Below, piece by piece: positions 6,388 to 26,496 of a DNA stretch of 64,000 nt. The stretch spans positions 310,001 to 374,000 of the forward strand of contig NZ_LT700189.1 in NCBI RefSeq assembly GCF_900155425.1. Direction: 5' to 3'. The notes beneath the pieces were generated by a model that made no database searches, was not told where the DNA came from, and was given only the letters and a program-made list of their open reading frames with translations. The first letter of the stretch is position 1; each line of letters starts with the position of its first letter. The translations under genes and the position numbers were made by a program. Source of the DNA: Parabacteroides massiliensis. GTDB lineage: Bacteria; Bacteroidota; Bacteroidia; Bacteroidales; Tannerellaceae.

Positions 6388-7611
6388 ATGAAAAAGATAT
6401 ATTTATTGTGGGTGGTTTTCGCCTACATTCTGGCAGGTTGCAATGGTAATACTGCGACACATGGAGAGCATGAACATGAAGCTCATGAACACGAAGAAGG
6501 ACATGACCATGATCACGAAGGCCACGACCATGAACATGAAGGCCACGATCATGATCACGAACATGAAGAAGCCGGAGGAGGACATGCCGGTGAGATTTCT
6601 TTCAAGAAAGCATTGGCGGAAGCCGTCGGGTTGCAAACGCATAAAGTGGAGCCGGGCACTTTTACCGATGTGATCAAGACGAGCGGGCGGGTGATGGCTG
6701 CACAGGGAGAGGAATCGACTGTGGTGGCTACGGTTCCCGGAGTGGTGACATTCGGCAACCTGTCGTTTGTCGACGGGACGGCTGTTCGTAAAGGGCAGGC
6801 TATATTGAGTCTTGCTTCGAGCGGTTTGTCTGACGGGAATGTAGCGGCTAAAGCTAAATATGCATACGAGAATGCAAAGAAAGAATATGAACGTATGGAA
6901 GCCTTGATTGGCGATAAGATCGTTTCGGCCAAAGATTTCGAACAGGCTCGTCTGAACTATGAGAATGCGAAGGTGGCTTGGGAAGCGGTGGCCGGAAAAC
7001 AGACGGCTAATGGTGTGTCTGTCGTTTCGCCGATGAACGGTTATCTGAAGAACCTGCAAGTGAAAGAGGGCGATTATGTGACGGTCGGCCAGCCGTTGGC
7101 AACAATCTCGCAGAATAGCCGCCTGGTATTGCGTGCGGAAGTTTCAGAGAAATATTACAACTATTTGCCTTCTGTCCAGTCCGCTAATTTCCGTACGTCG
7201 TACGATAACGTGACTTATAAACTATCCGAGCTGCGCGGACGTTTGCTCTCTTATGGAAAGGCCTCCGATGCCAACTCGTTTTATGTCCCGGTTACATTCG
7301 AGTTTGATAACAAAGGAGCCATAATCCCCGGTTCGTTTGTCGAAATCTATCTGCTTACCGCTCCGATGCAGAATGTGATCAGCGTTCCTGTCTCCGCCCT
7401 TATCGAAGAACAAGGAGTCTACTCCGTCTTTGTCCGCGAGCATGAAGAGGCCTATAAGAAAGTCCCTGTGACATTAGGAGCCGACAATGGTTCTGAGGTC
7501 CAGATCTTGAGCGGCTTGAAAGCCGGCGACGAAGTCGTGACGGCCGGTGCTTACCAGATCAAGTTGGCTTCTGCTTCTAATGCAATACCTGCACATACAC
7601 ATAACCATTAA
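6388..7611 (+). CDS. efflux RND periplasmic adaptor, CusB/CzcB-like lipoprotein
   Basis: This 407-residue membrane-fusion protein links an inner-membrane RND pump to an outer-membrane channel. The N-terminus MKKIYLLWVVFAYILAGC ends in a lipobox with Cys18. Residues about 25-65 are a run rich in His, Glu and Asp, typical of heavy-metal adaptors and probably a metal-binding leash. A biotinyl-lipoyl-like half (VVATVPGVVTFGNL), a short coiled-coil hairpin (about residues 150-205), a second lipoyl half (VVSPMNGYLKNLQVKEGDYV) and beta-barrel domains follow. It is followed by CusA- and TolC-like genes in one operon. The His-rich segment points to divalent metals (Cu, Zn, Co or Cd); the specific ion cannot be read from sequence. 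Confidence 0.92.
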   Translation: MKKIYLLWVVFAYILAGCNGNTATHGEHEHEAHEHEEGHDHDHEGHDHEHEGHDHDHEHEEAGGGHAGEISFKKALAEAVGLQTHKVEPGTFTDVIKTSGRVMAAQGEESTVVATVPGVVTFGNLSFVDGTAVRKGQAILSLASSGLSDGNVAAKAKYAYENAKKEYERMEALIGDKIVSAKDFEQARLNYENAKVAWEAVAGKQTANGVSVVSPMNGYLKNLQVKEGDYVTVGQPLATISQNSRLVLRAEVSEKYYNYLPSVQSANFRTSYDNVTYKLSELRGRLLSYGKASDANSFYVPVTFEFDNKGAIIPGSFVEIYLLTAPMQNVISVPVSALIEEQGVYSVFVREHEEAYKKVPVTLGADNGSEVQILSGLKAGDEVVTAGAYQIKLASASNAIPAHTHNH

Positions 7612-10600: not shown

Positions 10601-10776
10601 TGACGGCCCTCAGTTCGGCTCTCGCATTGATCCCGCTTGCACTGAATGGCGATTTGCCCGGCAACGAGATACAAAGCCCGATGGCAACCGTCATCTTGGG
10701 CGGGTTGTTGACATCCACTTTCCTGAACGGCTTCATCATCCCGATTGTTTATTTATTGATGAATAAAGAGAAATGA
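7663..10776 (+). CDS. heavy-metal RND efflux pump, CusA/CzcA family
   Basis: A full-length 1037-residue HME-type RND transporter: TM1 at about residues 13-33, the porter motif DVDVFPDLNAPTVVIMTEA, a periplasmic porter domain, a TM2-6 block containing GSLVDDAIVDVENVYKRI, a second periplasmic domain and a TM8-12 block with GFISLFGIATRNGMLLISHY. It uses the proton-motive force to move metal ions out through the adaptor and TolC channel. It lies 51 bp after the adaptor and 21 bp before the channel gene. HME subfamily membership is clear; whether it moves monovalent Cu/Ag or divalent Zn/Co/Cd is undecided, though the His-rich partner leans toward divalent ions. Confidence 0.95.
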   Translation: MLNKIIYYSLHNRLVVLICSLLLMIAGMYTAFHMDVDVFPDLNAPTVVIMTEANGMAPEEVERLVTFPVETAVNGAMDVRRVRSSSTTGFSVVWVEFDWGTDIYRARQIVSEKLAVVSESLPENVGKPTLGPQSSILGEMMIIGLTVDETSKDDSQATPTTQMDLRTIADWTIRPRLLSTGGVAQVAVIGGDIKEYQILLDPARMKHYGVSLDEVLAVTRNMNRNANGGVLYEYDNEYIIRGVLSTANAEEIGKGVVKIVGDFPVLLENIATVKVGSKSPKLGTASERAKPAVLITVTKQPNTSTIDLTEKLDAIVADLQKNLPADVHVSTDIFRQSRFIDSSINNVKDSLFEGSFFVVIVLFLFLMNIRTTVISLVALPLSLLVSILTLHYMGLTINTMSLGGMAIAIGSLVDDAIVDVENVYKRIRENRLLPPDRQLSILEVVFEASREVRMPILNSTLIIVVSFVPLFFLHGMEGRMLVPLGIAFIVALFASTVVALTLTPVLCSYLLNQKSTDKKVEKEAWVARKLKELYGKALNGALAHKKMVLGCTIGLFFVALGTFFTLGRSFLPSFNEGSFTINVSSLPGISLEESDEMGRRAEELLMQVPEIQTVARKTGRAELDEHALGVNVSEIEAPFALKDRSRDAVMNDVRKKLSTISGANIEIGQPISHRIDAMLSGTEANIAIKLFGTDLNLMFTVGNQIKEAIQGIPGLVDLKVEQQIERPQLTITPKRELMAQYGISLPEFEEYVNVMLGGEAVSQVYDDGKTFDLTVKTSDESRATMEDIRNLMIDAGGKKVPLSYVADIRSVTGPNTINRENVQRKIVISGNVSERDLRGVVNEIQQKVDTSIRLPEGYHIEYGGQFESEQAASRTLLLTSLMSLLVIFLLLYNEFKNAKESGVILLNLPLALIGGVFILRLTSGEISIPAIIGFISLFGIATRNGMLLISHYTHLQTVENMPLQQAVLQGSMDRLNPILMTALSSALALIPLALNGDLPGNEIQSPMATVILGGLLTSTFLNGFIIPIVYLLMNKEK

Positions 10777-10797: not shown

Positions 10798-11985
10798 ATG
10801 CAAATGAAACGATTCATATTAACAATAGCATTGGTTTCTTCAGCAATGGCCGCCGGGGCGCAAACGTCTATCGAGGAAGTGCTCCGGAGCGTAGAAGCCA
10901 ACAACAAGGAATTGCAGGCAAACCGCCAGATGGTGACGGCTCAGAAGTTGGAAGCCAAATTGGACAACAACCTGCCGGACCCGTCCGTTTCCTATACGCA
11001 TCAGTATGGAAATAAGGAAGGGATGGGAATACAAGGTGAGTTGGTGGCTTCCCAGTCTTTCGATTTCCCTACGGTCTATGTGCAGAAGAATAAATTGTCG
11101 AAAGCAAAAGGAGAGGGTTTCGACCGGCAAAGTGCGGAAATCCGCCAGCAGATTTTGTTGCAGGCCAAAGAAGTTTGTCTCGATTTGGTCTTGCTGAACC
11201 AGCAGAAGAACCTTTTGGACATCCGCCGGCAGAATGCCGAGCAGCTATCTGCCCTTTATGAGACACGTTTGCAGAATGGCGATGCCAATGTACTCGAAGT
11301 AAACAAGATCAACCTCGAACTGCTCAATGCAAAGAACGAAGCCCGCATGAACGAAGCTGCCCGCATGGCCAAGTTGCATGAGTTGGCGATGCTTAACGGC
11401 GGTATCGAGATTAATTTTACCGATACGGCCTATCTCCCGGTAGAAAACCCGTTGTCTTTTGTCGACTTGAAGCAGGAAGCGATCCCGGCCAATCGCCAGT
11501 TACTCTCTTTACAGAGTGAAAAGGCGGCGGCCCTGCGCCAGTTGAGTGTGAGCAAATCATTGAATCTGCCCGGCTTCGAATTGGGCTATCGTCTGAATAC
11601 GGCTACCGGAGGCGAACGTTTCAATGGTTTTTTGGTGGGGATCAGCATTCCTCTTTTCTCCAATCGCAACCATGTAAAACAGGCGAAAGCGCAGAGCCTT
11701 TATACCGATTTGCAACTGGAAAGCGCGACGGCGACGATCGAAAGCGATTTGCTCCGGCTTTATAACCAATCGGTGGCCCTGAAGACCTCCATCGACGAGT
11801 ATAGCGAAGTGTTGAAAAGCCAGAATAACCTGGCGTTGTTGAACAAGGCGATCCAAGCAGGACAAATCTCGATGATCGAATATTTTGTAGATGTCACCAC
11901 GCTTTACCAAAGTATGCAGAATCATATGCAATTGCAGAATGAATACCAGAAAGTGATGGCTCAATTGTATAAATTCAAGTTATAA
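10798..11985 (+). CDS. TolC-family outer-membrane efflux channel (CusC-like)
   Basis: This 395-residue protein has a signal peptide (MQMKRFILTIALVSSAMAAGAQ, cut near residue 22) and the two alpha-helical repeats of outer-membrane efflux proteins, for example LLQAKEVCLDLVLLNQQKNLLDIRRQ and the later helix ending at LYKFKL. Such proteins form trimeric channels across the outer membrane and periplasm. Starts at 10798 or 10804 (MKRFIL) are both possible. It is the last gene of the metal-efflux operon, ahead of the terminator at 11991-12060. Confidence 0.92.
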   Translation: MQMKRFILTIALVSSAMAAGAQTSIEEVLRSVEANNKELQANRQMVTAQKLEAKLDNNLPDPSVSYTHQYGNKEGMGIQGELVASQSFDFPTVYVQKNKLSKAKGEGFDRQSAEIRQQILLQAKEVCLDLVLLNQQKNLLDIRRQNAEQLSALYETRLQNGDANVLEVNKINLELLNAKNEARMNEAARMAKLHELAMLNGGIEINFTDTAYLPVENPLSFVDLKQEAIPANRQLLSLQSEKAAALRQLSVSKSLNLPGFELGYRLNTATGGERFNGFLVGISIPLFSNRNHVKQAKAQSLYTDLQLESATATIESDLLRLYNQSVALKTSIDEYSEVLKSQNNLALLNKAIQAGQISMIEYFVDVTTLYQSMQNHMQLQNEYQKVMAQLYKFKL

Positions 11986-12060: not shown

Positions 12061-12079
12061 GTTTCAGATATTTCTTTGT

Positions 12080-12121
12080 GGTGAAAATAAATTTTCATGC
12101 CGGTGAAAATTTATTTTCACC
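12080..12121. repeat. perfect 18-bp inverted repeat of the TGAAAAT/ATTTTCA family
   Basis: GGTGAAAATAAATTTTCA (12080-12097) and its exact reverse complement (12104-12121) are separated by 6 bp. Each arm is itself close to palindromic. A related palindrome is at 60262-60279. The role is unknown. Confidence 0.85.
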
Positions 12122-12282
12122 AGAGAGAAATTTTTTTTATCCTCCATGCAGGGCTTTATACATGCCCCCGTCCACCTTACAGACCGGAATCCGGTCCACC
12201 TGCCAAACTCAGTGTTTCGATATATGAATGGAGTGATTGTTGTGTATTGTGATTGTTGTTGTTATATAGGAACTTATGATGA

Positions 12283-12609
12283 CATAGTTCTGTAAGAACT
12301 ATGGATATTTGAATGGGAAAGTTGAAAATTAGAGGATTTACAAATCCTTTCCTGGATGGGTATCATTTTGCGTTCCTGAATAAAGAATAAAAACGGACAT
12401 ATAGACTATGTATATAAATGCAGATAACGTTTGTTGTGAAATAAGACATGGTGGCGGATTATTAATTGCGAATGTGTTAATTGTTTGTTTTGTAGAATGT
12501 TGTGATTAAAACATCGGTAAAAGGATTATTTGAATGGAAATTTCGTAACATGAATAAATCTTTTATATCTTTGTTGGCGACGAAACTCCTAAGTTCTTAC
12601 AGAACTCTG
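12283..12609. other. candidate invertible segment carrying the sigma-factor promoter
   Basis: A 22-bp sequence at 12283-12304 and another at 12588-12609 are inverted repeats of each other (19 of 22 positions match); both contain the palindromic core AGTTCTGTAAGAACT. The 283 bp between them has no gene and contains the rightward promoter TATCTTTG at 12566-12573, near the right repeat. This is the layout of phase-variable promoters in Bacteroidales. The rest of the 12061-12645 gap shows only AT-rich sequence. Inversion is inferred; no recombinase gene is in the window. Confidence 0.5.
12566..12573 (+). promoter_or_regulatory. -7 promoter box for ECF sigma gene
   Basis: TATCTTTG is an exact TAnnTTTG match. 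The predicted start near 12580 would give a leader of about 65 nt that reads through the right-hand inverted repeat before the ATG at 12646. The -33 element is weak. Confidence 0.6.
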
Positions 12610-12645
12610 CTGTTTAAAGAATGTTAAAGTAATATATATAAGTGG

Positions 12646-13203
12646 ATGAACAAACCTATTTCTAACAAAGGATGTATGTTGAATAATTTTGACAGGATAT
12701 ATGTCACATATTATTCCCGTATGCTTCGTTTTGCCAAAGAATATGTATTGTTTGATGAGGATGCTGAGAATGTTGTTCAAGACGTGTTTCTTCTTTTATG
12801 GGAGAAGCGGGAAGTCTTGGATATACAGGTCAGTTTGGTTTCCTATCTTTTTTCGCTTGTGAAGAACCGGAGTCTCGATTATCTTCGTCATAAAGTGGTG
12901 GCAGAGGAATACAGACAAGAACTGACTTTTAAGCTGTCGGCCCTTGAACAATTGAACTATACTTTTACATCAGAAGAAGATATCGAGCAAGCCGTAACCA
13001 AAGCTATCGACAAGTTGCCCGAACGATGTCGTGAAATATTTTTAAAGAGCCGTATAGAAGGAATGAAATATCGGGAAATTGCCGATGAATTAGACATCTC
13101 AATGAATACGGTAGAGAACCAGATGTCCATAGCCTTAAAGAAACTTCGTATTGAATTGAAGGACTACTTGCCCCTGTTATTATTTCTGATTTGTGTTAAA
13201 TAA
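12646..13203 (+). CDS. ECF-type RNA polymerase sigma-70 factor (FecI-like)
   Basis: This 185-residue protein has sigma region 2 (FAKEYVLFDEDAENVVQDVFLLLWEKR, about residues 29-55) and region 4 with the HTH (AIDKLPERCREIFLKSRIEG, then YREIADELDISMNTVENQMS). It has the usual size of Bacteroidales PUL sigma factors. The first Met at 12646 is kept, although Met at 12676 (MLNNFDRIY) would fit many relatives better. It is followed by a FecR anti-sigma and a SusC with an N-terminal signalling domain, so it probably switches on the downstream SusC/SusD/GH92 operon when substrate binds SusC. Its own promoter lies in the candidate invertible segment. Confidence 0.93.
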   Translation: MNKPISNKGCMLNNFDRIYVTYYSRMLRFAKEYVLFDEDAENVVQDVFLLLWEKREVLDIQVSLVSYLFSLVKNRSLDYLRHKVVAEEYRQELTFKLSALEQLNYTFTSEEDIEQAVTKAIDKLPERCREIFLKSRIEGMKYREIADELDISMNTVENQMSIALKKLRIELKDYLPLLLFLICVK

Positions 13204-13272
13204 TATTTATTTGCGATTGTTTTTTGGTGGTAAATGAGAAGATAATCGCTCTTCCTTACAAAAGTGTGAGGA

Positions 13273-14250
13273 ATGCATGAACTAATAACAAAATATTTTT
13301 ATGGGGAAATAACTGCTAAGGAGAAAAAGCAGTTGTTTTCCGCTATGGAAACAGATGCAGAACTGAAAAAGGAGTTTTTGTCAGTTCAGAACCTTTGTGC
13401 TTTGACATCGTGGATTCCGGCAGAAAAGGACGAATCAGTTGCTGTCGGTAAACTTCTCGAATTTAAGCAAGCTCGCAAAGAAAAATCATTCGCAATCCCC
13501 TATAAGCATATTTTAGGATATGTAGCAACGATTTGTGTTGCTGTTTTTTCCACTTGGATGATCTCTAATCGGATAAATCGGTTCGTAGTTGAGGAACCCG
13601 TGATTATGTATGAAGAATTTACCACTCCTCCCGGACAACGTGCATTAGTGAAGTTGCATGATGGAACGACCGTTTGGCTGAATGCCCGTTCGACCTTGCG
13701 CTATCCGAATCGTTTCGAAAAGAATGAACGAAAAGTGGAACTGGACGGAGAGGCTTTTTTTGAAGTGGAGCGGAATGAGAAAGCGCCTTTTGTCGTCTCT
13801 ACGGAAAAAGCGAATATAGAGGTGTTAGGCACTAAGTTTAATGTCTTTGCCTATAAAGAACATGACGAATTCAACACTTCGTTGGTTGAAGGTTCCGTAA
13901 AAGTTTATCAAGGTGATAGCGATAGCAACGCATTGACGATTTCGCCACACGAATGTGTTTTCTTGTCAAACGGCAAGTTGGTGAAGAGCTATTTCGATAA
14001 TTCTGATTTTATGTTGTGGAAAGAAGGAGTCTATGCTTTTGACGATGCCTCTTTTAGTGATATCATTAAAAAGCTTGAGCTATATTATGATGTAACGATA
14101 GTGCAAAAAAACAAGCAACTGGATCGGTATAGATTTAGTGGCAAATTCCGCCAGCGAGACGGGGTGGAGAGTGTACTCCAGATTTTGCAAAAGGTCTATT
14201 CTTTTTCGTTTGTGAAGGATGAGGATAGAAATTGCATTACCATACGTTGA
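13273..14250 (+). CDS. FecR-family anti-sigma factor
   Basis: A 325-residue protein: a cytoplasmic N-terminal segment (about residues 1-76), one membrane helix (HILGYVATICVAVFSTWMI, about residues 77-96), then the periplasmic FecR domain with TPPGQRALVKLHDGTTVWLN and LDGEAFFEVERNEKAPFVV, and the C-terminal DUF4974-like part (FDDASFSDIIKKLELYYDVTI). It should hold the upstream sigma factor at the membrane until the SusC signalling domain interacts with its periplasmic part. It lies 69 bp after the sigma gene. Start choice is clear because the overlapping ATG at 13277 hits a stop. Confidence 0.93.
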   Translation: MHELITKYFYGEITAKEKKQLFSAMETDAELKKEFLSVQNLCALTSWIPAEKDESVAVGKLLEFKQARKEKSFAIPYKHILGYVATICVAVFSTWMISNRINRFVVEEPVIMYEEFTTPPGQRALVKLHDGTTVWLNARSTLRYPNRFEKNERKVELDGEAFFEVERNEKAPFVVSTEKANIEVLGTKFNVFAYKEHDEFNTSLVEGSVKVYQGDSDSNALTISPHECVFLSNGKLVKSYFDNSDFMLWKEGVYAFDDASFSDIIKKLELYYDVTIVQKNKQLDRYRFSGKFRQRDGVESVLQILQKVYSFSFVKDEDRNCITIR

Positions 14251-14427: not shown

Positions 14428-17400
14428 ATGAAAAAAGAACCGAAAATTCTAAATGCCATGAGAATTTCAGTATTCTTTCTTTTCCTTTGTGTATTCTCTT
14501 CATTTGCGACAGAAACAAGTTCGCAAAATGCACGAGTCAATATCAGCGGAAAGAATTTAACAATCGGAGAATTTATCGATCAAGTAGAAAAGCAAACAGA
14601 TTATCTGTTTGTTTACAGTAAAAATGAGGTAAATACGAACGACGCCGTATCCGTCAAAGCGGGATCTAAGACGGTCGCTCAGTATTTGAGTGAAGCATTC
14701 GGTGATTCGAATGTAAAGTATGCTTTTGAGAACGATTATATCGTTCTGACAAAAAATGCGAGTCCAGTTGTTGCCCAAGATGGAAAAACAATTACTGGGG
14801 TTGTTACGGATGAATTGGGCCCGGTTGCCGGAGCCAATGTGATTGTAAAAGGTACCACCAACGGGACGATAACCGATATGGACGGAAAGTATTCTCTTTC
14901 GGGTGTTCCGGCTGGGGCAACCTTGCAAATATCCTATATCGGTTATCTGACAAAAGAAGTACCGGTCGGATCTCAATCGGAGATAAACGTTACTTTGCTT
15001 GAAGATTCGCAGGCTTTGGACGAAGTCGTGGTGGTCGGTTATGGTACGATGCGCAAATCAGACGTAACAGGTTCTATCAGTGTGGCTAAAGGTGAAGAAT
15101 TGCTAAAGAGCCAGAATTTCAGTGCATTGGATAATTTGCGCGGTAAGGTTTCCGGTGTAAACATCTTTTCCAATTCCAGCCAGCCGGGAGCATATGCCAA
15201 TCGTGTCGTGATCCGTGGTTTGGCTACGATCAATGCTTCTTCGAATCCATTGTATGTAGTGGATGGTGTGGTTATGGAGAATTTCGAATTGGTCAATCCG
15301 AATGACATCGAATCGATGGAAGTATTGAAAGATGCTTCAGCCGCTGCTATCTATGGTGCACGTGGTGCCAATGGCGTTATCATGGTGACGACGAAACGTG
15401 GCAAGAAAGACGGAGAAGGCACTTCCGTTAGTTATCAAGGTTCGGTCAGCGCAAGCCATATTGCCCGCAAGATGGATGTACTTACGGCTCAAGAGTGGTG
15501 TGACGCTTTCATGCAGGGGCTTGAAAACGAAAACAAATGGCAGGGAAAGAATTGGTCTTTGAATCGTGCCGACTGGTTTAACGATGCCGATTATTTCGAT
15601 GCAAGCGGCAATCCGCTATATGATACAAACTGGCAAGACGAAGCAACTCGTACCGCTATTTCCCACAACCATCAGATCAATATTCAGCAAGCAGGGAAAA
15701 GTTCTTCCATGGGAGCATTCCTGAACTATACGGACCAGCAAGGTATCGTCAATAATACATATAATAAACGTATCAATGCGAAATTGGCCTACGATGCAAA
15801 TCCGACTTCTTGGTTGTCCACATCTGTCAATGTATTGGTGAACCATACATGGGGACGTTATACTCCGGAAGATGGTGGCGGGCAGGAAGCACGCCGTACC
15901 ATGATCGAAATGGTGCCATGGATGCCTGTCCGGGATAAAAACGGCAATTATACGACTTCGGCTTCATCTTCTATCGGAGATGTATTGGGTTTCGAAGGAA
16001 TGTCTAATCCTGTCATGATCTTGGATATGCAGAAACGTATGCGTTACAATACTCAGATTTTCGGGAATGCCGCATTTACGTTCCATTTGGCTGAAGGACT
16101 GGATTTAAAGACTCAGTTGGGTATTGATAGCCATAACAGGACCTATCGTGGCTATTCTTCTATTGATTTGAACAACATCTCCATGCCGAACGGATGGGCT
16201 GAATACCAGAACTGGAATACCCTGTATTGGCAGGAAGAAACTTATCTGACCTATAATAAAGTGTTTGGAGATCATCGTATCAATGCTATGGTCGGTTTGT
16301 CTTGGCAAGAACGCACTCAGAAATGGAATAAGAGCCGTACGACCGGTTTTTCGGACGACTTCTTTGAAGATAACAATATGTCGGTAGGTACGACTCCTGA
16401 TTCTCCTGAGTCTTCTTACACACGTTGGGCAATGAACTCTTATTTCTTACGTTTCGCTTATACGTATAAAGATCGTTATTCCGCAACCCTGACAGGACGT
16501 GTCGATGGTTCTTCCAAGTTCGGAGAGAACAACAAATATGCCGTTTTCCCATCAGCCGGCTTAGCTTGGAATATTTCGCAGGAAGACTTTTTGGCAGATA
16601 ACAACACGATCAGCAATTTGAAATTGCATACAAGTTACGGTTTGACCGGTAACTCTGAAATCGATGTTTATAAATCGTTGGCACAAGTCTCATCCGGAAC
16701 TTTGTTGCTGAATGGTGTGCGTGCGCCATATGCCTATGTCAACTCAATGGCCAATCCTGACCTGAAATGGGAAAAGACCGGCCAGTTCGATGTCGGTGTC
16801 GAATTAGGTTTGTTCCAAAGTCGTTTGAATTTCGATATAGCATATTATAACAAGAAAACGACCGATTTGCTTCTTGATTGTCCGTTGCCTCATTCAACCG
16901 GTTATTCAACCGTTTATAAGAATATCGGTTCCGTACGTAACTCCGGTTTGGATTTGATGATCAACTTCCGTCCGATCCAAAGCCAGGATTTTAGTTGGAA
17001 TTCCACAATCAATTTGAACTATAACAAAAATAAGATCCTTCATTTAGGAGACAACGATGAAGATATCGAGATGAACAGCTGGGTAGGCGGTTCTGAAAGT
17101 ATCTTGCGTGTCGGCGAAAATATGTCTTCATTCTATGGATATAGAAGATTAGGCGTTTATACCGAAGAAGACTATGAGAACGAAGAATGCACGTTGGACC
17201 AGATCGGTCGTGCAAAACGTACGGAAAAGAAGGAAATCTTGGGTAAAGGTATGCCGGACTGGACAGGTAGCTGGGTAAATACGTTCAATTATAAGAATTT
17301 TGATTTGACAATGGACTTGCAATTTGTTTGGGGAGTTGAAACCATGCAACAGTTCTACCATTCAACTTACGACCGTTTTGGAATCACGAACGGTTTGAGC

Positions 17401-17775
17401 AATATCCTGTATGACGCTTATAACGGGACGAATCCGAACACCATGCAACAAGCTATTTATTTGTGCAACTCAGGTCATGCCGGACAGGATACGACCGTTG
17501 ATTCCCAGTGGATTGCCGATGGCTCTTATTTACGTTGCAATCTGTTGCAACTTGGTTACACATTCACTCCGAAAGCGATTAAATCGATCGGTTTGTCTGC
17601 TTTGCGTCTGTATGCGAGTGCAAATAACCTGTTCTTGATAACTTCGAAGGATTTCAACGGATATGATCCGGAATCAACCTCACAGGGTGATAGCAATAAG
17701 TTCGGGCAGAATATGACATTCTTCTCTTATCCGAGAGCAAGAACGTTTACTTTTGGCGTTAACGTAACATTTTAA
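14428..17775 (+). CDS. SusC/RagA-family TonB-dependent outer-membrane transporter with STN domain
   Basis: This 1115-residue glycan importer has a signal peptide (about residues 1-33), an STN signalling domain (about residues 36-112, NLTIGEFIDQVEKQTDYLFVY), a carboxypeptidase-regulatory-like domain (ITGVVTDELGPVAGANVIVK, about residues 121-195), a plug with EVVVVGYGTMRKSDVTGS and VEVLKDASAAAIYGARG-like sequence, and a 22-strand beta-barrel ending in FTFGVNVTF. The STN domain matches regulation by the upstream sigma/FecR pair. Together with the SusD-like lipoprotein 23 bp downstream it would import oligosaccharides with TonB energy. The three GH92 genes that follow suggest mannose-containing glycans. 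Confidence 0.96.
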   Translation: MKKEPKILNAMRISVFFLFLCVFSSFATETSSQNARVNISGKNLTIGEFIDQVEKQTDYLFVYSKNEVNTNDAVSVKAGSKTVAQYLSEAFGDSNVKYAFENDYIVLTKNASPVVAQDGKTITGVVTDELGPVAGANVIVKGTTNGTITDMDGKYSLSGVPAGATLQISYIGYLTKEVPVGSQSEINVTLLEDSQALDEVVVVGYGTMRKSDVTGSISVAKGEELLKSQNFSALDNLRGKVSGVNIFSNSSQPGAYANRVVIRGLATINASSNPLYVVDGVVMENFELVNPNDIESMEVLKDASAAAIYGARGANGVIMVTTKRGKKDGEGTSVSYQGSVSASHIARKMDVLTAQEWCDAFMQGLENENKWQGKNWSLNRADWFNDADYFDASGNPLYDTNWQDEATRTAISHNHQINIQQAGKSSSMGAFLNYTDQQGIVNNTYNKRINAKLAYDANPTSWLSTSVNVLVNHTWGRYTPEDGGGQEARRTMIEMVPWMPVRDKNGNYTTSASSSIGDVLGFEGMSNPVMILDMQKRMRYNTQIFGNAAFTFHLAEGLDLKTQLGIDSHNRTYRGYSSIDLNNISMPNGWAEYQNWNTLYWQEETYLTYNKVFGDHRINAMVGLSWQERTQKWNKSRTTGFSDDFFEDNNMSVGTTPDSPESSYTRWAMNSYFLRFAYTYKDRYSATLTGRVDGSSKFGENNKYAVFPSAGLAWNISQEDFLADNNTISNLKLHTSYGLTGNSEIDVYKSLAQVSSGTLLLNGVRAPYAYVNSMANPDLKWEKTGQFDVGVELGLFQSRLNFDIAYYNKKTTDLLLDCPLPHSTGYSTVYKNIGSVRNSGLDLMINFRPIQSQDFSWNSTINLNYNKNKILHLGDNDEDIEMNSWVGGSESILRVGENMSSFYGYRRLGVYTEEDYENEECTLDQIGRAKRTEKKEILGKGMPDWTGSWVNTFNYKNFDLTMDLQFVWGVETMQQFYHSTYDRFGITNGLSNILYDAYNGTNPNTMQQAIYLCNSGHAGQDTTVDSQWIADGSYLRCNLLQLGYTFTPKAIKSIGLSALRLYASANNLFLITSKDFNGYDPESTSQGDSNKFGQNMTFFSYPRARTFTFGVNVTF

Positions 17776-17798: not shown

Positions 17799-19367
17799 AT
17801 GAAAAGAATATTGACAATGGTTGTTACATGCGCCTCTTTAATAGGGTTTAGTGCATGTTCGGACTTTTTGGATGAGGAGCCTAAGTCTTCATTGACAAGT
17901 GGAGCATTTTATAAAACGGAAGCTCAAGTGTTGGCAAATGTGAATTATCTGTATCGTACAGGTGCTTCTACTAAGTTAACAGGTGCAGGTAGTGCTTATA
18001 TCGGACCTTTTGCTTCTGTAACAGGAAATTTGACAGGCTACTTTACGAATAGTTACGAAGGACAAGAATTGGTGTGTAAGTATTCACGAGAATTGACCCG
18101 CCAGCAAAACACGATGACGGTATCATCAACGATGGATGGTGTATGGGATGATTGCTATAAGGCCATTAATGTCGCCAATGGGGCTATCAAACACATACCG
18201 GAAGTTTCCATGTCTGAATCTGTAGCAAACCAGTTGATGGCGGAAGCTAAATTTTTCCGTGCATTCAATTATTTCAATCTGGTGAAAATTTTCGGACCCG
18301 TACCGATGCCTACGGAGCCTTATGAATCTATGGACAATCTATATTTGGAGCGTACTTCGACAGAACAGGTTTATGCGTTAATCGAATCAGATTTGAAAGA
18401 TGCGGTAAATGCCCTGCCTGCAACTACGTTCTATAATAATGGAAATCGTGTTACGAAGTATGTGGCAGCTATGGCTTTGACTTCCGTCTATATGCAGGAA
18501 GGAAAGTATGCTGAAGCAGCTTCAACGGTGAAAACGGTTATCGATTCTCCTCATTCATTGACGGCAAACGGTGATCTGAGCATGAACAGCGCTTATAATA
18601 AAATCCGTTCGACAGATGGTTTGGACGAATCGATTTGGGCGTATGAGTTTGATGATGCCATCAGTAATGGCGGTTGGTGGCCTACGTATGCTTTTAACTC
18701 TTCCGCTACGGCTGTATTTGGCACTTATTCTATTTTCGAACGTGTATATGGCCCGATAGACCGATTCTTGAATGTATATGAATCCAACGATTTGCGTATC
18801 CAGCCTAACCAATTTTTCCATTGGAATTATACGAATCCGAATACAGGCAAGACATGGTCTTCCGAACAGGCAGGATGCTGGTTCTGGTATGATGAAGATG
18901 CATTGTTGAATACGGGACGTTCGACCAAAGACAAGGATTTGTATCGCTATGCAGAAGCATTGTTGGATGCGGCCGAGTCGATTGCACAATCTCAAGGTGT
19001 GACGGCCGAGGCTGCCGGTTATTTGGCACAGATAAAAGCCCGTGCCAACATGGAAGGCAAGTCTGCCGAGGCTATTGCTACCGATTTGCAGGCCTTGAGC
19101 CAGCAAGCCTTTATTGAAGAATGCTGGACTGAACGTCTGCGTGAGTTCCCATTGGAATTTAAGATTTGGGACGATTGTCTGCGTACGAAGAAGTTCCCGG
19201 TGATTTCCACGACAGAGAAAGGGCGTGTGACATATGTCGATTTGGTAGGAGCCCAAAATGCTTCCGGTGCGACATTCAAGTCATCTGACCTTCTGTGGCC
19301 GATCTCGTTGAACGAAATGCAACGCAATCCGAATTTGACGCAGAACGACGGATATCAGCTGAATTAA
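17799..19367 (+). CDS. SusD/RagB-family surface glycan-binding lipoprotein
   Basis: A 522-residue lipoprotein: MKRILTMVVTCASLIGFSAC with lipobox Cys20, followed by SDFLDEEP, the acidic surface-export context typical of SusD proteins. The TPR-like SusD fold is seen in AEAKFFRAFNYFNLVKIFGPVP (about residues 147-168) and ECWTERLREFPLEFKIW near the C-terminus. SusD acts as a lid on the SusC barrel and binds substrate at the cell surface. It is part of the SusC operon and is followed by a terminator hairpin, which may lower expression of the GH92 genes relative to susCD. Confidence 0.95.
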   Translation: MKRILTMVVTCASLIGFSACSDFLDEEPKSSLTSGAFYKTEAQVLANVNYLYRTGASTKLTGAGSAYIGPFASVTGNLTGYFTNSYEGQELVCKYSRELTRQQNTMTVSSTMDGVWDDCYKAINVANGAIKHIPEVSMSESVANQLMAEAKFFRAFNYFNLVKIFGPVPMPTEPYESMDNLYLERTSTEQVYALIESDLKDAVNALPATTFYNNGNRVTKYVAAMALTSVYMQEGKYAEAASTVKTVIDSPHSLTANGDLSMNSAYNKIRSTDGLDESIWAYEFDDAISNGGWWPTYAFNSSATAVFGTYSIFERVYGPIDRFLNVYESNDLRIQPNQFFHWNYTNPNTGKTWSSEQAGCWFWYDEDALLNTGRSTKDKDLYRYAEALLDAAESIAQSQGVTAEAAGYLAQIKARANMEGKSAEAIATDLQALSQQAFIEECWTERLREFPLEFKIWDDCLRTKKFPVISTTEKGRVTYVDLVGAQNASGATFKSSDLLWPISLNEMQRNPNLTQNDGYQLN

Positions 19368-19435: not shown

Positions 19436-19503
19436 GGTATTAATAAATGGGGGATAACCCCGATCATATTGAAAACAAATCCAGAAATAAAAAAATTAAA
19501 GCA

Positions 19504-21777
19504 ATGAAACTAAGTAAACAAGGAGCGATGGTGGGTATGATATGCCTTACCTCTCTCGTCTTTTCTTGCCAAGCACCGGAAAAGAAGCAACAAGTAGCAG
19601 CCACGGACTATACTGCTTATGTTGATCCGTATATCGGGTCAGGCGAACACGGACATGTCTTTGTCGGAGCCAATGTGCCTTTCGGCGCCGTGCAGGTCGG
19701 GCCGCAGAACATTCATAAAGGATGGGACTGGTGTTCCGGCTATCATTATTCGGATAGCGTGATTATCGGGTTCAGCCATACCCACCTGAGTGGTACGGGA
19801 TGTGCCGACCTGGGCGATATCCTGGTGATGCCGTTTGTCGGAGAAGTCCGCACGGCACGTGGCGAACAGGACAATATCGAAGGCTCATGCGCCTCTTATT
19901 ACAAGCACGAGAACGAATCGGTCGCCCCAGGCTACTACTCCCTTTTGATGGACAATGGCGTGAAAGTGGAGTTGACCTCTACCGAGCGTGTCGCCATGCA
20001 CCACTATACGTTTCCGAAAAATCAAGCCGCTCATTTGCTGATCGACCTGAAAGAAGGGAACGGAGACAAATCGTACGACACGTATCTGAAGAAAGTCGAT
20101 GAATATACAATAGAAGGTTATCGTTTCTCCCACGGATGGAGCCCCCAGCACAAGGTCTTTTTCGTAATGAAGTTTGACCAGCCGATTGCCTCTGTGCAAG
20201 TTTTCAAAGGTGACGAACCGGCCGGAGCCGACGAGCTGACCGCCGAAAACGTGAAAGGCGTTGTCTCTTTCCTGGACAATCCCGAGAACGTAATGGCCAA
20301 GGTGGCGATCTCTTCCGTCGGTTGTCCGAATGCCGGGCTGAACATGCAAACCGAGTTGCCGCATTGGGATTTTGCCCAGGTGCGCCAAGCCGCCAAAGAG
20401 AAATGGAACGACCAGTTGGCCTGTGTAGCAATAGACGGGGCGGACGAAAAAGACAGAAAAGTTTTCTATACCGCTCTTTACCATGCTTTTATTGCTCCGA
20501 CTCTGTATTGCGATGTGAATGGCGAGTTTCGTGGGCAGGACGATCAGATATATAAGGACAATGATTGGACAAACTATTCCACCTTCTCTTTGTGGGATAC
20601 CTACCGCACATTGAACCCGCTCTATACTATCATCGCGCCTGAGAAAGTAGACGACATCGTAAACTCGTTCCTGAGTATTTACGACCAACAGGGTAAGTTG
20701 CCGATCTGGCATTTGCTCGGTGGAGAAACCGATTGCATGCCGGGCTATAGTTCCGTGCCGGTCGTTGCGGATGCTTACCTCAAAGGTTTCGGCGGTTTCG
20801 ACGCCGAGCGTGCTTTCCGGGCTATGGTCGGAACGGCAACAAACAAGAACCAGAAAGCAGTGCCTTATGTATTGGAAAAAGGCTTTATCCCGTGCGACAA
20901 AGTGCATGAAGCAACCTCCATCGCGATGGAATATGCCGTCGATGACTGGGGTATCGCTCTGATGGCGAAAAAGATGGGTAAGGACGATGCTTATGAAACT
21001 TATCTGAAGAGAGGAAAATATTATGCCCAGTATTTTGACACGGACATTCATTTCGTTCGTCCGAAAATGGAAGACGGAAGCTGGCGTACGCCGTATGACC
21101 CGTTCCGTTCCGTCCACGGGGTAGGCGATTTTACGGAAGGAACAGGCTGGCAATACACTTTCTTCGTGCCTCAGCATCCGGAAGGTCTGATCGGGATCAT
21201 GGGAGGCGATGCTGCTTTTACGGCTAAGTTGGATTCCTTGTTCTGTGTCGAAGGCGATATGGGCGAAGGCGCTTCAAGTGATATCAGCGGTTTGATTGGG
21301 CAATATGCCCACGGCAACGAACCGAGCCACCACATTGCCTACCTTTATCCGTATGCCGGCGAACAATGGAAGACGGCCGAGAAGGTGCGCTACATTCAAA
21401 AAGAGTTCTATACCGACCAGCCCGATGGAATTATCGGTAACGAAGATTGCGGGCAGATGTCAGCCTGGCATATCATGTCTGCTTTAGGTTTCTACCAGGT
21501 GAACCCGTCGAACGGCGTGTTGGTCTTCGGAAGCCCCTTGTTTGAAAAAGCTTCGATCCGTTTGCCGGGTGGCAAGACGTTCGATGTCGTTGCCCAAAAC
21601 AACAACGAAGAGAATATCTATATCCAGTCTGTGACATTGAACGGGCAGCCTTACGACAAGTCCTATATATTGTATGAAGACGTGATGAAGGGTGGAACGC
21701 TGACTTTCGTTATGGGCAACACTCCTAACAAACAATTCGGCGCGGCTCCGGAAAGTCGTCCGGTCTCTGCCGAATAG
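19504..21777 (+). CDS. GH92 glycosidase (alpha-mannosidase family), lipoprotein
   Basis: This 757-residue GH92 enzyme starts at the ATG at 19504, which gives a lipoprotein signal (MKLSKQGAMVGMICLTSLVFSC, Cys22); an upstream ATG at 19447 would put 19 polar residues in front. Family marks include YVDPYIGSGEHGHVFVGAN at the N-terminus, FTEGTGWQYTFFVPQ (conserved acid Glu), the loop HGNEPSHH, and GNEDCGQMSAWHIMSALGFY. GH92 enzymes are Ca2+-dependent inverting exo-alpha-mannosidases. The loop reads GNEP rather than the GHEP described for alpha-1,2-specific BT3990, so another linkage such as alpha-1,3 is possible. It is the first of three tandem GH92 genes. Confidence 0.93.
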   Translation: MKLSKQGAMVGMICLTSLVFSCQAPEKKQQVAATDYTAYVDPYIGSGEHGHVFVGANVPFGAVQVGPQNIHKGWDWCSGYHYSDSVIIGFSHTHLSGTGCADLGDILVMPFVGEVRTARGEQDNIEGSCASYYKHENESVAPGYYSLLMDNGVKVELTSTERVAMHHYTFPKNQAAHLLIDLKEGNGDKSYDTYLKKVDEYTIEGYRFSHGWSPQHKVFFVMKFDQPIASVQVFKGDEPAGADELTAENVKGVVSFLDNPENVMAKVAISSVGCPNAGLNMQTELPHWDFAQVRQAAKEKWNDQLACVAIDGADEKDRKVFYTALYHAFIAPTLYCDVNGEFRGQDDQIYKDNDWTNYSTFSLWDTYRTLNPLYTIIAPEKVDDIVNSFLSIYDQQGKLPIWHLLGGETDCMPGYSSVPVVADAYLKGFGGFDAERAFRAMVGTATNKNQKAVPYVLEKGFIPCDKVHEATSIAMEYAVDDWGIALMAKKMGKDDAYETYLKRGKYYAQYFDTDIHFVRPKMEDGSWRTPYDPFRSVHGVGDFTEGTGWQYTFFVPQHPEGLIGIMGGDAAFTAKLDSLFCVEGDMGEGASSDISGLIGQYAHGNEPSHHIAYLYPYAGEQWKTAEKVRYIQKEFYTDQPDGIIGNEDCGQMSAWHIMSALGFYQVNPSNGVLVFGSPLFEKASIRLPGGKTFDVVAQNNNEENIYIQSVTLNGQPYDKSYILYEDVMKGGTLTFVMGNTPNKQFGAAPESRPVSAE

Positions 21778-21882: not shown

Positions 21883-24192
21883 ATGAAGAAAAAAAGTATA
21901 TGGGGTTTTGCCCTTGTAGCTATGCTGACCTGCTTGGGGAGGCCGGCCGTTGCGGCGGACGGGGCTTTTGATCCGGTAGAGTATGTTAATCCTTTAATGG
22001 GGACGCAATCGACGTATGAACTATCGGCCGGTAACACTTATCCGGCCATAGCACGTCCCTGGGGTATGAATTTCTGGACTCCGCAGACCGGAAAGATGGG
22101 TGACGGATGGGGGTATACCTATACCGCGAATAAGATACGCGGTTTCAAACAAACCCACCAACCGAGCCCCTGGATCAATGATTACGGCCAGTTTGCGATC
22201 ATGCCGGTTGTCGGTTCTCCTGAATTCGATCAGGATAAACGCGCCAGTTGGTTTTCCCACAAGAGTGAGATCGCGAAACCGTATTACTACGAAGTCTATC
22301 TGGCGGAACATGACGTGAAGACCGAGTTGACACCGACGGACCGTGCCGCCATGTTTCGTTTCACTTTTCCCGAAAACGAACATTCTTATGTCGTAGTGGA
22401 TGCGTTTGACAAAGGTTCCTACATCAAGGTGGTTCCCGAAGAAAACAAGATTATCGGCTATACGACAAAGAATAGCGGGGGGGTGCCGGACAATTTCAAG
22501 AACTATTTCGTCATCGAGTTTGACAAATCTTTCACCTACGAAGCGACCTTTGCCGATGCGGCTTTGAAGGAAGGTGCGCGCGAGCAGCAATCCGACCATG
22601 TCGGTGCCGTTATCGGTTTCAAGACGGCGAAAGGCGAGATAGTGCATGCGAAGGTAGCCTCTTCGTTTATCAGTTTCGAACAAGCTTCGCTCAATCTGAA
22701 AGAACTGGGAACTGACAATTTTGACACATTGGTGCAAAAAGGCAAAGAGGTATGGAATAAGGAGTTGAGCAAGATCGAGGTGGAAGGCGGGACGCTGGAC
22801 CAGTATCGGACGTTCTATTCTTGTATGTACCGCTCGCTTCTGTTTCCTCGCAAATTTTATGAAATAGACGCGTCGGGGAAAATCGTACATTATAGCCCTT
22901 ACAATGGGGAAGTATTGCCGGGCTATATGTTTACCGACACCGGTTTTTGGGATACGTTCCGTAGCCTGTTCCCGTTCCTGAACCTGATGTACCCGACTAT
23001 GTCGAAGGAGATGCAGGAAGGCCTGATCAATACCTATAAGGAAAGCGGCTTCTTCCCCGAATGGGCGAGCCCCGGACATCGTGGTTGCATGGTGGGCAAC
23101 AACTCGGCTTCGGTTCTTGTGGATGCTTATGTCAAGGGTATAAAAGTGGACGATCTCGAAACATTGTACAAAGGTTTGATCCACGGAACGGAAAATGTAC
23201 ACCCGACGGTTTCTTCTACCGGTCGCCTCGGACATGAATATTACAACAAGCTGGGTTATGTGCCTTATGATGTAAAGATCAACGAGAATGCCGCCCGTAC
23301 GTTGGAATATGCCTATAACGACTGGTGTATTTACCAGATAGCAAAAGACTTGGGACGTCCAAAGAAAGAACTGGACCTGTATGCCAAGCGTGCGATGAAC
23401 TACAAGAACCTGTTTGACAAGGAGACCAAACTGATGCGTGGAAAGAATAAAGACGGCAAGTTCATGGCACCTTTTTCGCCATTGAAATGGGGAGATGCTT
23501 TCACGGAAGGGAACAGCTGGCACTATACATGGTCGGTTTTCCACGATCCGCAAGGCCTGATCGATCTGATGGGCGGACGAAAGGAATTTGTCGCTATGCT
23601 GGATTCCGTATTTGCCGTTCCCCCTGTGTTTGACGATAGCTATTACGGACAGGTTATCCATGAGATACGTGAAATGCAGATTATGAATATGGGGAACTAT
23701 GCGCATGGCAACCAGCCGATCCAACATATGATCTATCTGTACAACTATGCCGGTGAGCCTTGGAAAGCCCAATACTGGCTCCGCCAGGTGATGAACCGCA
23801 TGTACACCCCGACACCGGACGGCTATTGCGGTGACGAAGATAACGGGCAGACTTCCGCCTGGTATGTCTTCTCCGCACTCGGCTTCTATCCGGTTGCTCC
23901 CGGAACGACGCAATATGTATTGGGCGCACCTTTGTTCAAGAAAGCCACCCTGCACTTCGAGAACGGAAAGAATCTGGTTATCAACGCGCCGGAGAACAGC
24001 GACAAGAATATCTATATCGAGTCCATGTCTTTCAACGGAAAGAATTACACCAAAAACTATCTGGAGCATTTCGAACTGCTGGAAGGCGGTGTCCTGGATG
24101 TCAAGATGGGAGACAAGCCGAACATGAACAGAGGCGTGAATCCGGAAGATTTGCCATATTCGTTTTCAGTGAATGAGAAACAAAAAAAATAA
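21883..24192 (+). CDS. GH92 glycosidase, secreted
   Basis: A 769-residue GH92 enzyme with a Sec signal peptide (about residues 1-24, cut after AVAA) and no lipobox cysteine. Family marks are YVNPLMGTQSTYELSAGNTY, FTEGNSWHYTWSVFHDPQG with the conserved Glu, and GDEDNGQTSAWYVFSALGFY. The +1-subsite loop reads GNQPIQH instead of GNEPSHH; the Glu of that loop is replaced by Gln, so its linkage preference, or its substrate, probably differs from its neighbours. Likely periplasmic. It lies 105 bp after the first GH92 and 3 bp before the third. Confidence 0.92.
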   Translation: MKKKSIWGFALVAMLTCLGRPAVAADGAFDPVEYVNPLMGTQSTYELSAGNTYPAIARPWGMNFWTPQTGKMGDGWGYTYTANKIRGFKQTHQPSPWINDYGQFAIMPVVGSPEFDQDKRASWFSHKSEIAKPYYYEVYLAEHDVKTELTPTDRAAMFRFTFPENEHSYVVVDAFDKGSYIKVVPEENKIIGYTTKNSGGVPDNFKNYFVIEFDKSFTYEATFADAALKEGAREQQSDHVGAVIGFKTAKGEIVHAKVASSFISFEQASLNLKELGTDNFDTLVQKGKEVWNKELSKIEVEGGTLDQYRTFYSCMYRSLLFPRKFYEIDASGKIVHYSPYNGEVLPGYMFTDTGFWDTFRSLFPFLNLMYPTMSKEMQEGLINTYKESGFFPEWASPGHRGCMVGNNSASVLVDAYVKGIKVDDLETLYKGLIHGTENVHPTVSSTGRLGHEYYNKLGYVPYDVKINENAARTLEYAYNDWCIYQIAKDLGRPKKELDLYAKRAMNYKNLFDKETKLMRGKNKDGKFMAPFSPLKWGDAFTEGNSWHYTWSVFHDPQGLIDLMGGRKEFVAMLDSVFAVPPVFDDSYYGQVIHEIREMQIMNMGNYAHGNQPIQHMIYLYNYAGEPWKAQYWLRQVMNRMYTPTPDGYCGDEDNGQTSAWYVFSALGFYPVAPGTTQYVLGAPLFKKATLHFENGKNLVINAPENSDKNIYIESMSFNGKNYTKNYLEHFELLEGGVLDVKMGDKPNMNRGVNPEDLPYSFSVNEKQKK

Positions 24193-24195
24193 ACG

Positions 24196-26496
24196 ATGGA
24201 GATACTAAAGAAAACAGGAAAAATCTTATTGGGCGTCATGATCGGAGTTGCCATCATGATGATTGTCGACAGGTATTGTGTCAAAGGAAAGCGACCGGCA
24301 GCCGGCGATTTGCCGAAAGAACCGGTTGAATATGTCAATCCCTATATGGGGAACATCAGTCATCTGCTGGTGCCGACCTATCCGACCGTCCACCTGCCAA
24401 ACAGCATGTTGCGTGTCTATCCCGAACGAAGCGACTTCACGGGAGACCGATTGGGAGGCCTGCCTCTCATCGTGACGAGCCATCGAGGCAGTTCGGCCTT
24501 CAACCTGAGTCCTTATCAAGGCGACGAGGCAGGGCTGAGACCGGTTATCCGGTATAGCTATGATCGGGAAAAAATCGTCCCGTATCGGTATCAGGTCTAT
24601 TTGGACGATGCGAATATCGAGGTCGATTATGCCCCCTCTCACCAGAGCGCGGTTTACAACCTTACATTTGAGAAAGACGGACTGGCTTATCTGGTGTTCA
24701 ATAGCCGTAACGGAGAGTTGAAATGTGATGGAAATACGGTCAGCGGTTTTCAATATGTAGATAAGAAAACGAAAGTCTATTTATATGCCGAAACAGACAA
24801 GGCGCCGGAGAAATCCGGTGTCCTGTCCGATGGAACCGTGAAGTTTGGTGAATCGTCCGTAGAAGGGAAAAATGCAGCTTTGGCATTGGCTTTCTCCGGT
24901 CAGAAAGAGATCAGCGTTCGTTATGGAATCTCTTTTATCAGCACGGAGCAAGCCCGGAAGAACCTGGAACGTGAGATCAACTCTTACGATGTGGATGCGA
25001 TCGCCCGGATCGGACGCAACGAATGGAACGACGCTTTGGGCAAGATACAGGTGAGCGGAGGAAGCGAAAACGACAAGACTATTTTCTATACCTCCTTGTA
25101 CCGTTGTTATGAACGCCCGGTGAACCTGAGTGAAGACGGTAAATACTATAGCGCCTTTGACGGCAAGATACATGATGACGGTGGCCATTCGTTCTATACC
25201 GACGACTGGATTTGGGATACTTATCGTGCCACCCATCCGCTTCGTATCCTGATCGATAAGGAGCGTGAGACCGATATTATCAATTCCTACCTCTTGATGG
25301 CCCAGCAGATGGGGACAAACTGGATGCCGACGTTTCCCGAAGTGACCGGCGATTCCCGTCGAATGAACTCCAACCACGCCGTAGCCACCGTTATCGATGC
25401 ATGGCGGAAAGGTGTTCGCGGTTTCGATCTTGAAAAAGCCTACGAAGCAGCCCGTAAGGGTATCGAGGAAAAAACGCTGATCCCCTGGTCGGCGGCTCCT
25501 TCCGGATGGTTGGATGAGTTTTATAAGGAACATGGCTATATCCCCGCTTTGAAACCGGGAGAGAAGGAAACGGTAGAGAACGTCTCTCCGTGGGAAAAAC
25601 GCCAGCCGGTCGCCGTTACCTTAGGGACGGCTTATGACGAATGGTGCCTTTCGCAGATTGCGGCCGAACTGGGAAAGAAAGAAGATGCGGAATATTTCCT
25701 TGCCCGGTCTTATAACTACCGGAACCTCTTTAATCCGGAAACCCGCTTCTTCCATCCGAAGGACAAGGACGGCCGTTTTATCGAAGGAGTGGACTACCGG
25801 TATTCCGGAGGCCTGGGAGCCCGTGATTATTATGATGAGAACAACGGCTATGTCTATCGTTGGGATGTACAACACAATATCGGCGACCTGGTTTCGCTCA
25901 TCGGTGGAAACGAAGCCTTTACGGCTGCCCTCGATTCGATGTTCGATACACCCTTGGGCATGTCCAAATGGCAATTCTATTCGTTCCTGCCTGACCACAC
26001 CGGCAATGTCGGCATGTTCTCGATGGCAAATGAACCGAGCCTGCATATCCCGTATCTCTATAATTATGCCGGGCAACCTTGGAAGACACAGAAGCGCATC
26101 CGTGTCCTGCTCGATGAATGGTTCCGTAATGACCTGATGGGTGTTCCCGGCGATGAAGACGGTGGTGGTATGTCGGCCTTCGTGGTGTTTAGTATGATGG
26201 GATTTTATCCGGTGACACCGGGATCCCCGACCTACAATATCGGCAGCCCTGTCTTTTCGGACGTGAAGATCGACCTTGGAAATGGTAATGTGTTTGAGAT
26301 TGTGGCAGACGGTGCAACCCATGATAATAAATATGTGCAATCGGTTACGTTGAATGGCGAAGAATTGAACCGGCCCTGGTTTGACCATAGCCGGATTTCC
26401 GCCGGCGGCGTTCTGTCTCTGAAGATGGGACCGAAAGCCAATAAGGAATGGGGAGTCGGAAACCCGCCGCCATCGGTCGGTCCGAAGCAGCAGTAA
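24196..26496 (+). CDS. GH92 glycosidase with N-terminal membrane anchor
   Basis: A 766-residue GH92 enzyme beginning with one uncleaved-looking hydrophobic helix (GKILLGVMIGVAIMMIVD, about residues 8-25) and no lipobox, so it is probably anchored in the inner membrane facing the periplasm. Family marks are YVNPYMGNISHLLVPTYP, DENNGYVYRWDVQHN (aligning the catalytic Glu), ANEPSLHIPYLYNYAG and GDEDGGGMSAFVVFSMMGFY. It is the most diverged of the three GH92 copies: the +1 loop is ANEP and the Gln of the usual GQMSAW block is Gly. It starts 3 bp after the preceding stop. Membership is clear; linkage is unknown. Confidence 0.9.
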   Translation: MEILKKTGKILLGVMIGVAIMMIVDRYCVKGKRPAAGDLPKEPVEYVNPYMGNISHLLVPTYPTVHLPNSMLRVYPERSDFTGDRLGGLPLIVTSHRGSSAFNLSPYQGDEAGLRPVIRYSYDREKIVPYRYQVYLDDANIEVDYAPSHQSAVYNLTFEKDGLAYLVFNSRNGELKCDGNTVSGFQYVDKKTKVYLYAETDKAPEKSGVLSDGTVKFGESSVEGKNAALALAFSGQKEISVRYGISFISTEQARKNLEREINSYDVDAIARIGRNEWNDALGKIQVSGGSENDKTIFYTSLYRCYERPVNLSEDGKYYSAFDGKIHDDGGHSFYTDDWIWDTYRATHPLRILIDKERETDIINSYLLMAQQMGTNWMPTFPEVTGDSRRMNSNHAVATVIDAWRKGVRGFDLEKAYEAARKGIEEKTLIPWSAAPSGWLDEFYKEHGYIPALKPGEKETVENVSPWEKRQPVAVTLGTAYDEWCLSQIAAELGKKEDAEYFLARSYNYRNLFNPETRFFHPKDKDGRFIEGVDYRYSGGLGARDYYDENNGYVYRWDVQHNIGDLVSLIGGNEAFTAALDSMFDTPLGMSKWQFYSFLPDHTGNVGMFSMANEPSLHIPYLYNYAGQPWKTQKRIRVLLDEWFRNDLMGVPGDEDGGGMSAFVVFSMMGFYPVTPGSPTYNIGSPVFSDVKIDLGNGNVFEIVADGATHDNKYVQSVTLNGEELNRPWFDHSRISAGGVLSLKMGPKANKEWGVGNPPPSVGPKQQ

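Follow-up and report, generated by a model that had tools for sequence, protein, structure and literature searches.

A putative phase-variable promoter switch upstream of an ECF sigma/FecR pair, and a family of inverted cores with matched centres in Parabacteroides

The locus and its inverted repeats

The window, i.e., the whole stretch of 64,000 nucleotides analyzed here, contains a locus in which genes for an ECF sigma factor, a FecR anti-sigma factor, SusC, SusD and three GH92 glycosidases all lie on one strand, downstream of a promoter box that is enclosed between two inverted repeats. GH92 enzymes point to alpha-mannosidic substrates. On the other side of the repeats we found RND efflux genes, including an HlyD-type gene (6388-7611), an ACR_tran gene (7663-10776) and the outer-membrane efflux gene given first below.

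10798..11985, + strand: outer-membrane efflux protein (PF02321), last RND efflux gene, on the other side of the proposed switch
12283..12305, + strand: left inverted repeat, putative recombination site; core 12286-12300, AGTTCTGTAAGAACT; 15 of 15 core bases the same in G014, the genome of a sister species
12301..12591, no strand: proposed invertible segment, geneless, 291 bp between the cores; 71% identity to G014
12541..12544, + strand: TTTC, possible -33 element (consensus TTTG), 21 bp before the -7 box; read from the sequence
12566..12573, + strand: -7 promoter box TATCTTTG, TAnnTTTG type, 18 bp inside the right core and facing the sigma gene (ON)
12587..12609, - strand: right inverted repeat; core 12592-12606, AGTTCTTACAGAACT; 15 of 15 core bases the same in G014
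12646..13203, + strand: ECF sigma factor, first gene of the putatively switched unit (TIGR02985, 175 bits, cut-off 126)
13273..14250, + strand: FecR anti-sigma factor (PF04773, PF16344)
14428..17775, + strand: SusC/RagA TonB-dependent transporter (TIGR04056, 854 bits)
17799..19367, + strand: SusD lipoprotein (domain search)
19447..21777, + strand: GH92 glycosidase (domain search)
21883..24192, + strand: GH92 glycosidase (domain search)
24196..26496, + strand: GH92 glycosidase (domain search)

A repeat search of the window gave two arms of 23 nt (12283-12305 and 12587-12609), 87% complementary and with 281 nt between them. An inverted pair had been described here in the initial annotation, and it is indeed present, with dimensions that differ from those given then (22 bp, 19 of 22 positions equal, 283 bp). 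Each arm includes a 15-bp core of the form AGTTC-N5-GAACT, and the two cores are exact mutual reverse complements. They had been called palindromic; their dyad arms are confirmed, but the palindrome is interrupted by an asymmetric centre of 5 bp (N5). The region between the repeats is geneless, as previously claimed: no open reading frame of at least 80 aa in the ORF list of the window overlaps 12301-12591. The core is not a rare sequence in the window taken by itself, with three matches at up to one mismatch versus 1.86 expected; its significance comes from the genome-wide counts described below. Behind the efflux genes and outside the switch, the window also contains a 28-nt inverted repeat with a 6-nt gap (12070-12131).

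The box TATCTTTG is the only TAnnTTTG found facing the ECF sigma gene (ATG at 12646), in agreement with the earlier report of an exact promoter box inside the right repeat and aimed at that gene. We found no TAnnTTTG between the right core and the sigma start codon, and no outward-facing one within 30 bp of the left core. In the excerpted text of two papers, TAnnTTTG is the Bacteroides -7 consensus (PMC4747536, PMC3090145). The window pair has three features of Tsr-type invertible promoters: a geneless promoter segment bounded by inverted repeats, an identical crossover region at both sites (N5 is the same in the two cores), and a -7 box near one repeat, directed outward to the regulated gene. 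With the segment inverted, the promoter and the efflux gene at 10798..11985 would be convergent.

Matches to positions 12200-13250 were found in 23 of 58 other genomes, and the segment itself only in G014 (83% across 970 bp, starting at the left repeat); the other matches fall within the sigma gene or its edges, except for one of 43 bp in G056, to the left of the switch. Identity to G014 is complete in the cores (30/30), and is 207/291 in the segment, 43/106 positions to the left and 26/39 between the core and the start codon. The opposite orientation was not seen in the two genomes bearing the segment, both of which are ON. The nearest named relative of the sigma factor (81% protein identity) is in Parabacteroides acidifaciens, which also has the identical stretch AAATCTTTTATATCTTTG. 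No exact core occurs across 6.6 kb around its sigma gene, and from its sequence this promoter is predicted to be fixed ON. The conservation test that had been set beforehand thus gave a divided answer, with the repeats kept in G014 and the promoter present without them in P. acidifaciens.

A family of core pairs with matched centres

We searched for the same core in the rest of the genome (G000; 5.02 Mb, 23 contigs), as the initial annotation had proposed, and did find it beside other promoters. There are 25 exact cores, versus 7 matches to the reversed pattern; the excess is absent at one mismatch (189, i.e., 214-25, versus 196, i.e., 203-7, reversed). Five exact pairs lie at most 400 bp apart, versus 0.05 expected if the 25 sites were scattered at random. 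Among the 23 exact sites examined in context, ten make up five exact pairs, seven are each paired with an inverted site that shares their N5 but has one mismatch in the core, and six are partnerless, one of them at a contig end. The genome thus has 12 core pairs in total, nine of them with a TAnnTTTG box. SusC genes (called by BLASTP, several confirmed by Pfam) are the nearest genes on at least one side in 9 of the 12 pairs, an ECF sigma gene in two (the window pair and the one at C2:846), and the 3' end of a FecR gene in one. The sigma/FecR neighbourhood recurs in the genus, at the window pair and its G014 ortholog, at the C2:846 pair and its G014 ortholog, and at L140 and L141 of G019. G004 is also core-rich (21 exact versus 2 reversed), and G016 (14 versus 23) and G017 (9 versus 25) are not enriched.

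The N5 centres were compared across a list of 146 exact cores from eight genomes of the genus (with G019 covered in part and G021, G023, G004 and G018 outside the set), taking all neighbour pairs less than 2 kb apart irrespective of N5. Among these cores, N5 was matched in 35 of 35 neighbour pairs, none being unmatched, and 34 pairs were inverted; the single direct one is in G012, at a SusC cluster with three sites. The 35 pairs have 21 distinct N5. Centres matched within a pair and free between pairs, in inverted order, indicate strand exchange within N5 rather than operators of a repressor. Such pair-specific centres would keep most switches from recombining with one another. The N5 argument rests solely on these 35 unselected pairs, since the set of 45 pairs described next was picked by identical N5.

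This larger set comes from five genomes (N5 identity, at most one core mismatch) and includes orthologs, so that its pairs are not independent. Of the 45 pairs, 29 have an outward TAnnTTTG no more than 30 bp from one core, none has one at both cores, and 16 have one at neither. In the same segments, the 2,790 near-core positions hold 29 boxes and the other 25,332 outward positions 26; 300 mononucleotide shuffles gave a mean of 2.28 boxes and a maximum of 7, versus the 29 observed. The distance from box to core is mostly 14 to 21 bp, with extremes of 6 and 28 bp. The box faces its gene at the window pair, and it is directed away from the gene it could serve at L078, L079, L080 and L083 (SusC) and at L086 (sigma/FecR). 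Promoters directed away from their own genes are most easily explained by turning round. L087 lies between two divergent SusC genes, and no SusC reading frame was found beside L091.

At L077:5122-7166 (G000:C1:205621-207665), the box points away from SusC and toward a tyrosine recombinase gene; inversion there might alternate the expression of SusC and the recombinase. Contig C2 starts 4 bp before a core, and its first 127 bases are identical to a stretch of C4 (C2:1-127 = L081:1-127; C4:378441-378567 = L091:8442-8568), suggesting that the assembly breaks at a SusC leader present in several copies.

Candidate recombinase

The search for recombinase genes, also proposed in the initial annotation, returned 26 matches to the phage-integrase family in the genome; 20 of them were scanned with NCBIfam and four were searched in other genomes. 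No NCBIfam model for a tyrosine-type DNA invertase was above cut-off among the 20 scanned; one protein passes as XerD, and one, from a partial reading frame, is XerC-like below cut-off. The best candidate is a chromosomal tyrosine recombinase of 390 aa (G000:C3:342118-343287), with Arm, SAM-like and catalytic domains and a reading frame uninterrupted by stop codons. Its C-terminal HxxRH, LGH and Y align with those of XerA and IntI4, and the R and K were read from the sequence. We infer that the enzyme is a tyrosine rather than a serine recombinase, and we consider this protein reasonably likely to be the one that acts on the switch.

Orthologs of the C3 recombinase (74-93%) were found, one each, in 8 of 11 genomes searched; G011 has fragments, and G004 and G018 have only relatives of about 30%. 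It is present in 6 of 7 core-rich relatives, the exception being G004, a draft of 490 contigs, and in 2 of 4 others. Counting against the link are its presence in the non-enriched G016 and G017 and its absence from the sequence of core-rich G004. SusC-like genes adjoin the orthologs in all 11 genus neighbourhoods examined, which is weak evidence because SusC genes are common in these genomes. Four of the 11 (G012, G016, G017 and G032) also have an exact inverted core pair at a distance of about 5 kb, flanked by divergent SusC genes; G012 and G032 have a common N5, as do G016 and G017, so that these are probably two cases. No exact core was found in 16 kb around the copy of G000 itself.

The enzyme may instead be another tyrosine recombinase, such as the 409-aa protein encoded beside the core pair at C1:207293/207651, a possibility that we consider doubtful. 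This gene lies 443 bp from a pair whose promoter box faces it, and its closest ortholog is in core-rich G004 (81%). Apart from that, identity above 60% was found only in G016 (65%), the other core-rich genomes having about 40% or less; we rejected it as the common enzyme because close orthologs are absent from most core-rich genomes. Two further integrases, found in G014 at 98% identity (L053 and L061), are possible enzymes.

For the same reason we set aside a 413-aa recombinase at C1:1150010 (at most 42% outside G000, apart from one short piece) and a 307-aa one at C2:286130 (no more than about 36% across most of the protein). Outside the genus, relatives of the C3 recombinase (49-58%) were found in three genomes of one other family, one with an internal stop and all beside SusC. 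At one of these places (L243:9218-11552), the related recombinase gene lies between inverted repeats that coincide with, or are close to, the 5' parts of two divergent SusC genes, an arrangement that resembles a coding shufflon.

Orientation of the segments and the proposed switch

Segments and flanks were compared across species, and six orthologous pairs were re-aligned with and without in-silico inversion. Three are flipped, and three have the same orientation (the window against G014, L085/L117 and L077/L112). The first flipped segment, C2:846698-846937 at the second sigma/FecR locus, aligns to G014 with 80.8% identity over 681 columns after in-silico inversion; the uninverted alignment is broken at the core, and only about 45 bp of the right flank align. 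The second, C4:378276-378459 against G013, gives 97.3% over 335 columns, the flanks aligning for about 40 bp on the left and 110 bp on the right. The third, C2:864746-865218 (L087) against L127 of G013, gives 84.8% over 613, in an alignment confined to the left flank and part of the segment. The first two flips have a variant outer half of the left core (AGTCC) that stays with the left flank while the interior is turned, which places the crossover inside the core. In the third, the variant half-core is outer in G000 and inner in G013, and this crossover pattern is not displayed.

Four more comparisons are unflipped (G013 L125/G014 L115, G013 L124/G014 L114, G013 L121/G014 L112 and G013 L121/L077). 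We kept outside the flip count three weak or ambiguous cases, L084 against G013 L120 (47 bp of left flank, and 146 bp of segment at 73% on the opposite strand), G000 L087/G014 L116 and G013 L127/G014 L116, in which the flanks are confused by SusC paralogs on both sides.

Two alternatives to an active switch were considered. The palindromes could serve as operators, to which a dimeric regulator would bind so as to repress the sigma promoter or to loop it, without any recombination. All cores have dyad symmetry, and one of them closely follows the promoter, a suitable position for a repressor. Operators, however, have no need of a shared asymmetric N5 or of inversion, yet all 35 listed pairs are matched, with 21 different N5 and 34 pairs inverted, and orthologous segments are flipped at the cores of three other pairs. 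We thus regard this explanation as extremely unlikely. Alternatively, the sites may once have recombined, with the window pair now frozen ON in these strains, as suggested by the ON state of both known copies (window and G014) and by the promoter that P. acidifaciens retains without the repeats. Against a locked switch, the 30 core bases are all intact around a segment at 71% identity, which points to continued selection on the sites, and the candidate recombinase has an uninterrupted reading frame; this we regard as very unlikely.

We conclude that 12286-12606 is an invertible promoter flipped by a tyrosine recombinase acting on the cores, with a probability of about 0.9. The phase-variable promoter switch originally proposed is thus also our best reading, given the matched N5, the one-ended outward boxes and the flipped orthologous segments, including the one at the second sigma/FecR locus. 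Counting against it are the 16 of 45 pairs without TAnnTTTG near a core, the box and sigma gene of P. acidifaciens without cores, the single orientation of the window segment in its two genomes, and the unflipped ortholog comparisons. On sequence grounds, the window segment itself very probably inverts. We infer the flipping of the window segment, the OFF expression state, the step from sigma to SusC and the enzyme.

In the proposed mechanism, a recombinase encoded elsewhere would bind the palindromic arms AGTTC/GAACT of both cores and exchange strands within the asymmetric N5; the N5s being inverted, the 291 bp between the cores would flip. As assembled, the TATCTTTG promoter would read through the right core into the ECF sigma and FecR genes (ON). 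The sigma factor, once freed by FecR upon sensing of the substrate, would activate the SusC, SusD and GH92 genes. After inversion no TAnnTTTG would face the sigma gene (OFF), and the glycan would go unanswered whatever the signal.

The type of switch is already known in relatives: it would work like the Tsr switches of Bacteroides fragilis, but flip the promoter of a sigma/anti-sigma pair and not that of susC. Excerpts from PMC4747536 describe the B. fragilis master invertases Mpi, Tsr0667 and Tsr19, and Tsr0667 controls three SusC/SusD clusters and nine other regions in the excerpted PMC4747536 and PMC11852207. As in the Tsr0667 system, a single tyrosine recombinase would serve many distant regions, the candidate adjoining SusC/SusD in a genome with 12 pairs; unlike there, the flipped promoter would drive an ECF sigma/FecR pair (Tsr0667 being compared by its description). 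A second B. fragilis system, as excerpted from PMC4747536, likewise combines a tyrosine recombinase, inverted repeats and a TAnnTTTG promoter inside the segment; it has one local and one distant promoter, and its targets are exopolysaccharide and outer-membrane protein operons, with no sigma factor. Mpi of the capsular polysaccharide loci is also a master invertase of many promoters (excerpts of PMC4747536 and PMC12632263), but it is a serine recombinase with other targets, again compared by description only. Inversions have been detected from reads in Parabacteroides distasonis (PMC5903667, excerpt), and regulatory genes are mentioned among those near invertible regions (PMC10939037, excerpt). 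An invertible promoter in front of an ECF sigma/FecR pair in Bacteroidales is not described in the excerpted text of PMC12632263, PMC10994844, PMC4747536 and PMC13114119, nor in that of PMC8748976, PMC12118408, PMC12548429 and PMC10939037; the main surveys lie outside this scope, and we do not claim primacy.

Beyond the locus itself, three results should be of most use: the candidate recombinase, the core motif together with the N5 rule, and the family of pairs that the motif brings to light; the motif provides an easy scan for such switches in Parabacteroides. There is about an even chance that the genus has a common regulon of invertible promoters, from ten to several tens of them, flipped mainly by one chromosomal recombinase beside SusC/SusD and placed before ECF sigma/FecR and SusC genes. 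If so, the response to a glycan would be double-gated, a random DNA switch setting ownership of the sensor and the substrate its use, and some of the cells in a gut population would fail to perceive a glycan however abundant, with a bearing on niche sharing and on the reading of expression data from such loci. Placed at the sigma factor, a switch would let one 291-bp flip decide seven genes.

Some pairs of the family have arrangements of their own. The pair at L087:2247-2719 (G000:C2:864746-865218) has a single outward box, and the divergent SusC genes on its two sides have similar N-termini; it would be an either/or rather than an on/off switch. Inside the core pair at L084:2726-4139 (G000:C1:1470725-1472138) is a DDE_Tnp_1 transposase gene, apparently from an insertion sequence trapped within an invertible segment, and an ORF with the length and start of this transposase gene lies at L080:8962. 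Finally, inverted cores with matched N5 occur 49 kb apart in G013 (C1:2143073 and 2192397), the second of them 385 bp from a recombinase gene, and may delimit a large invertible region.
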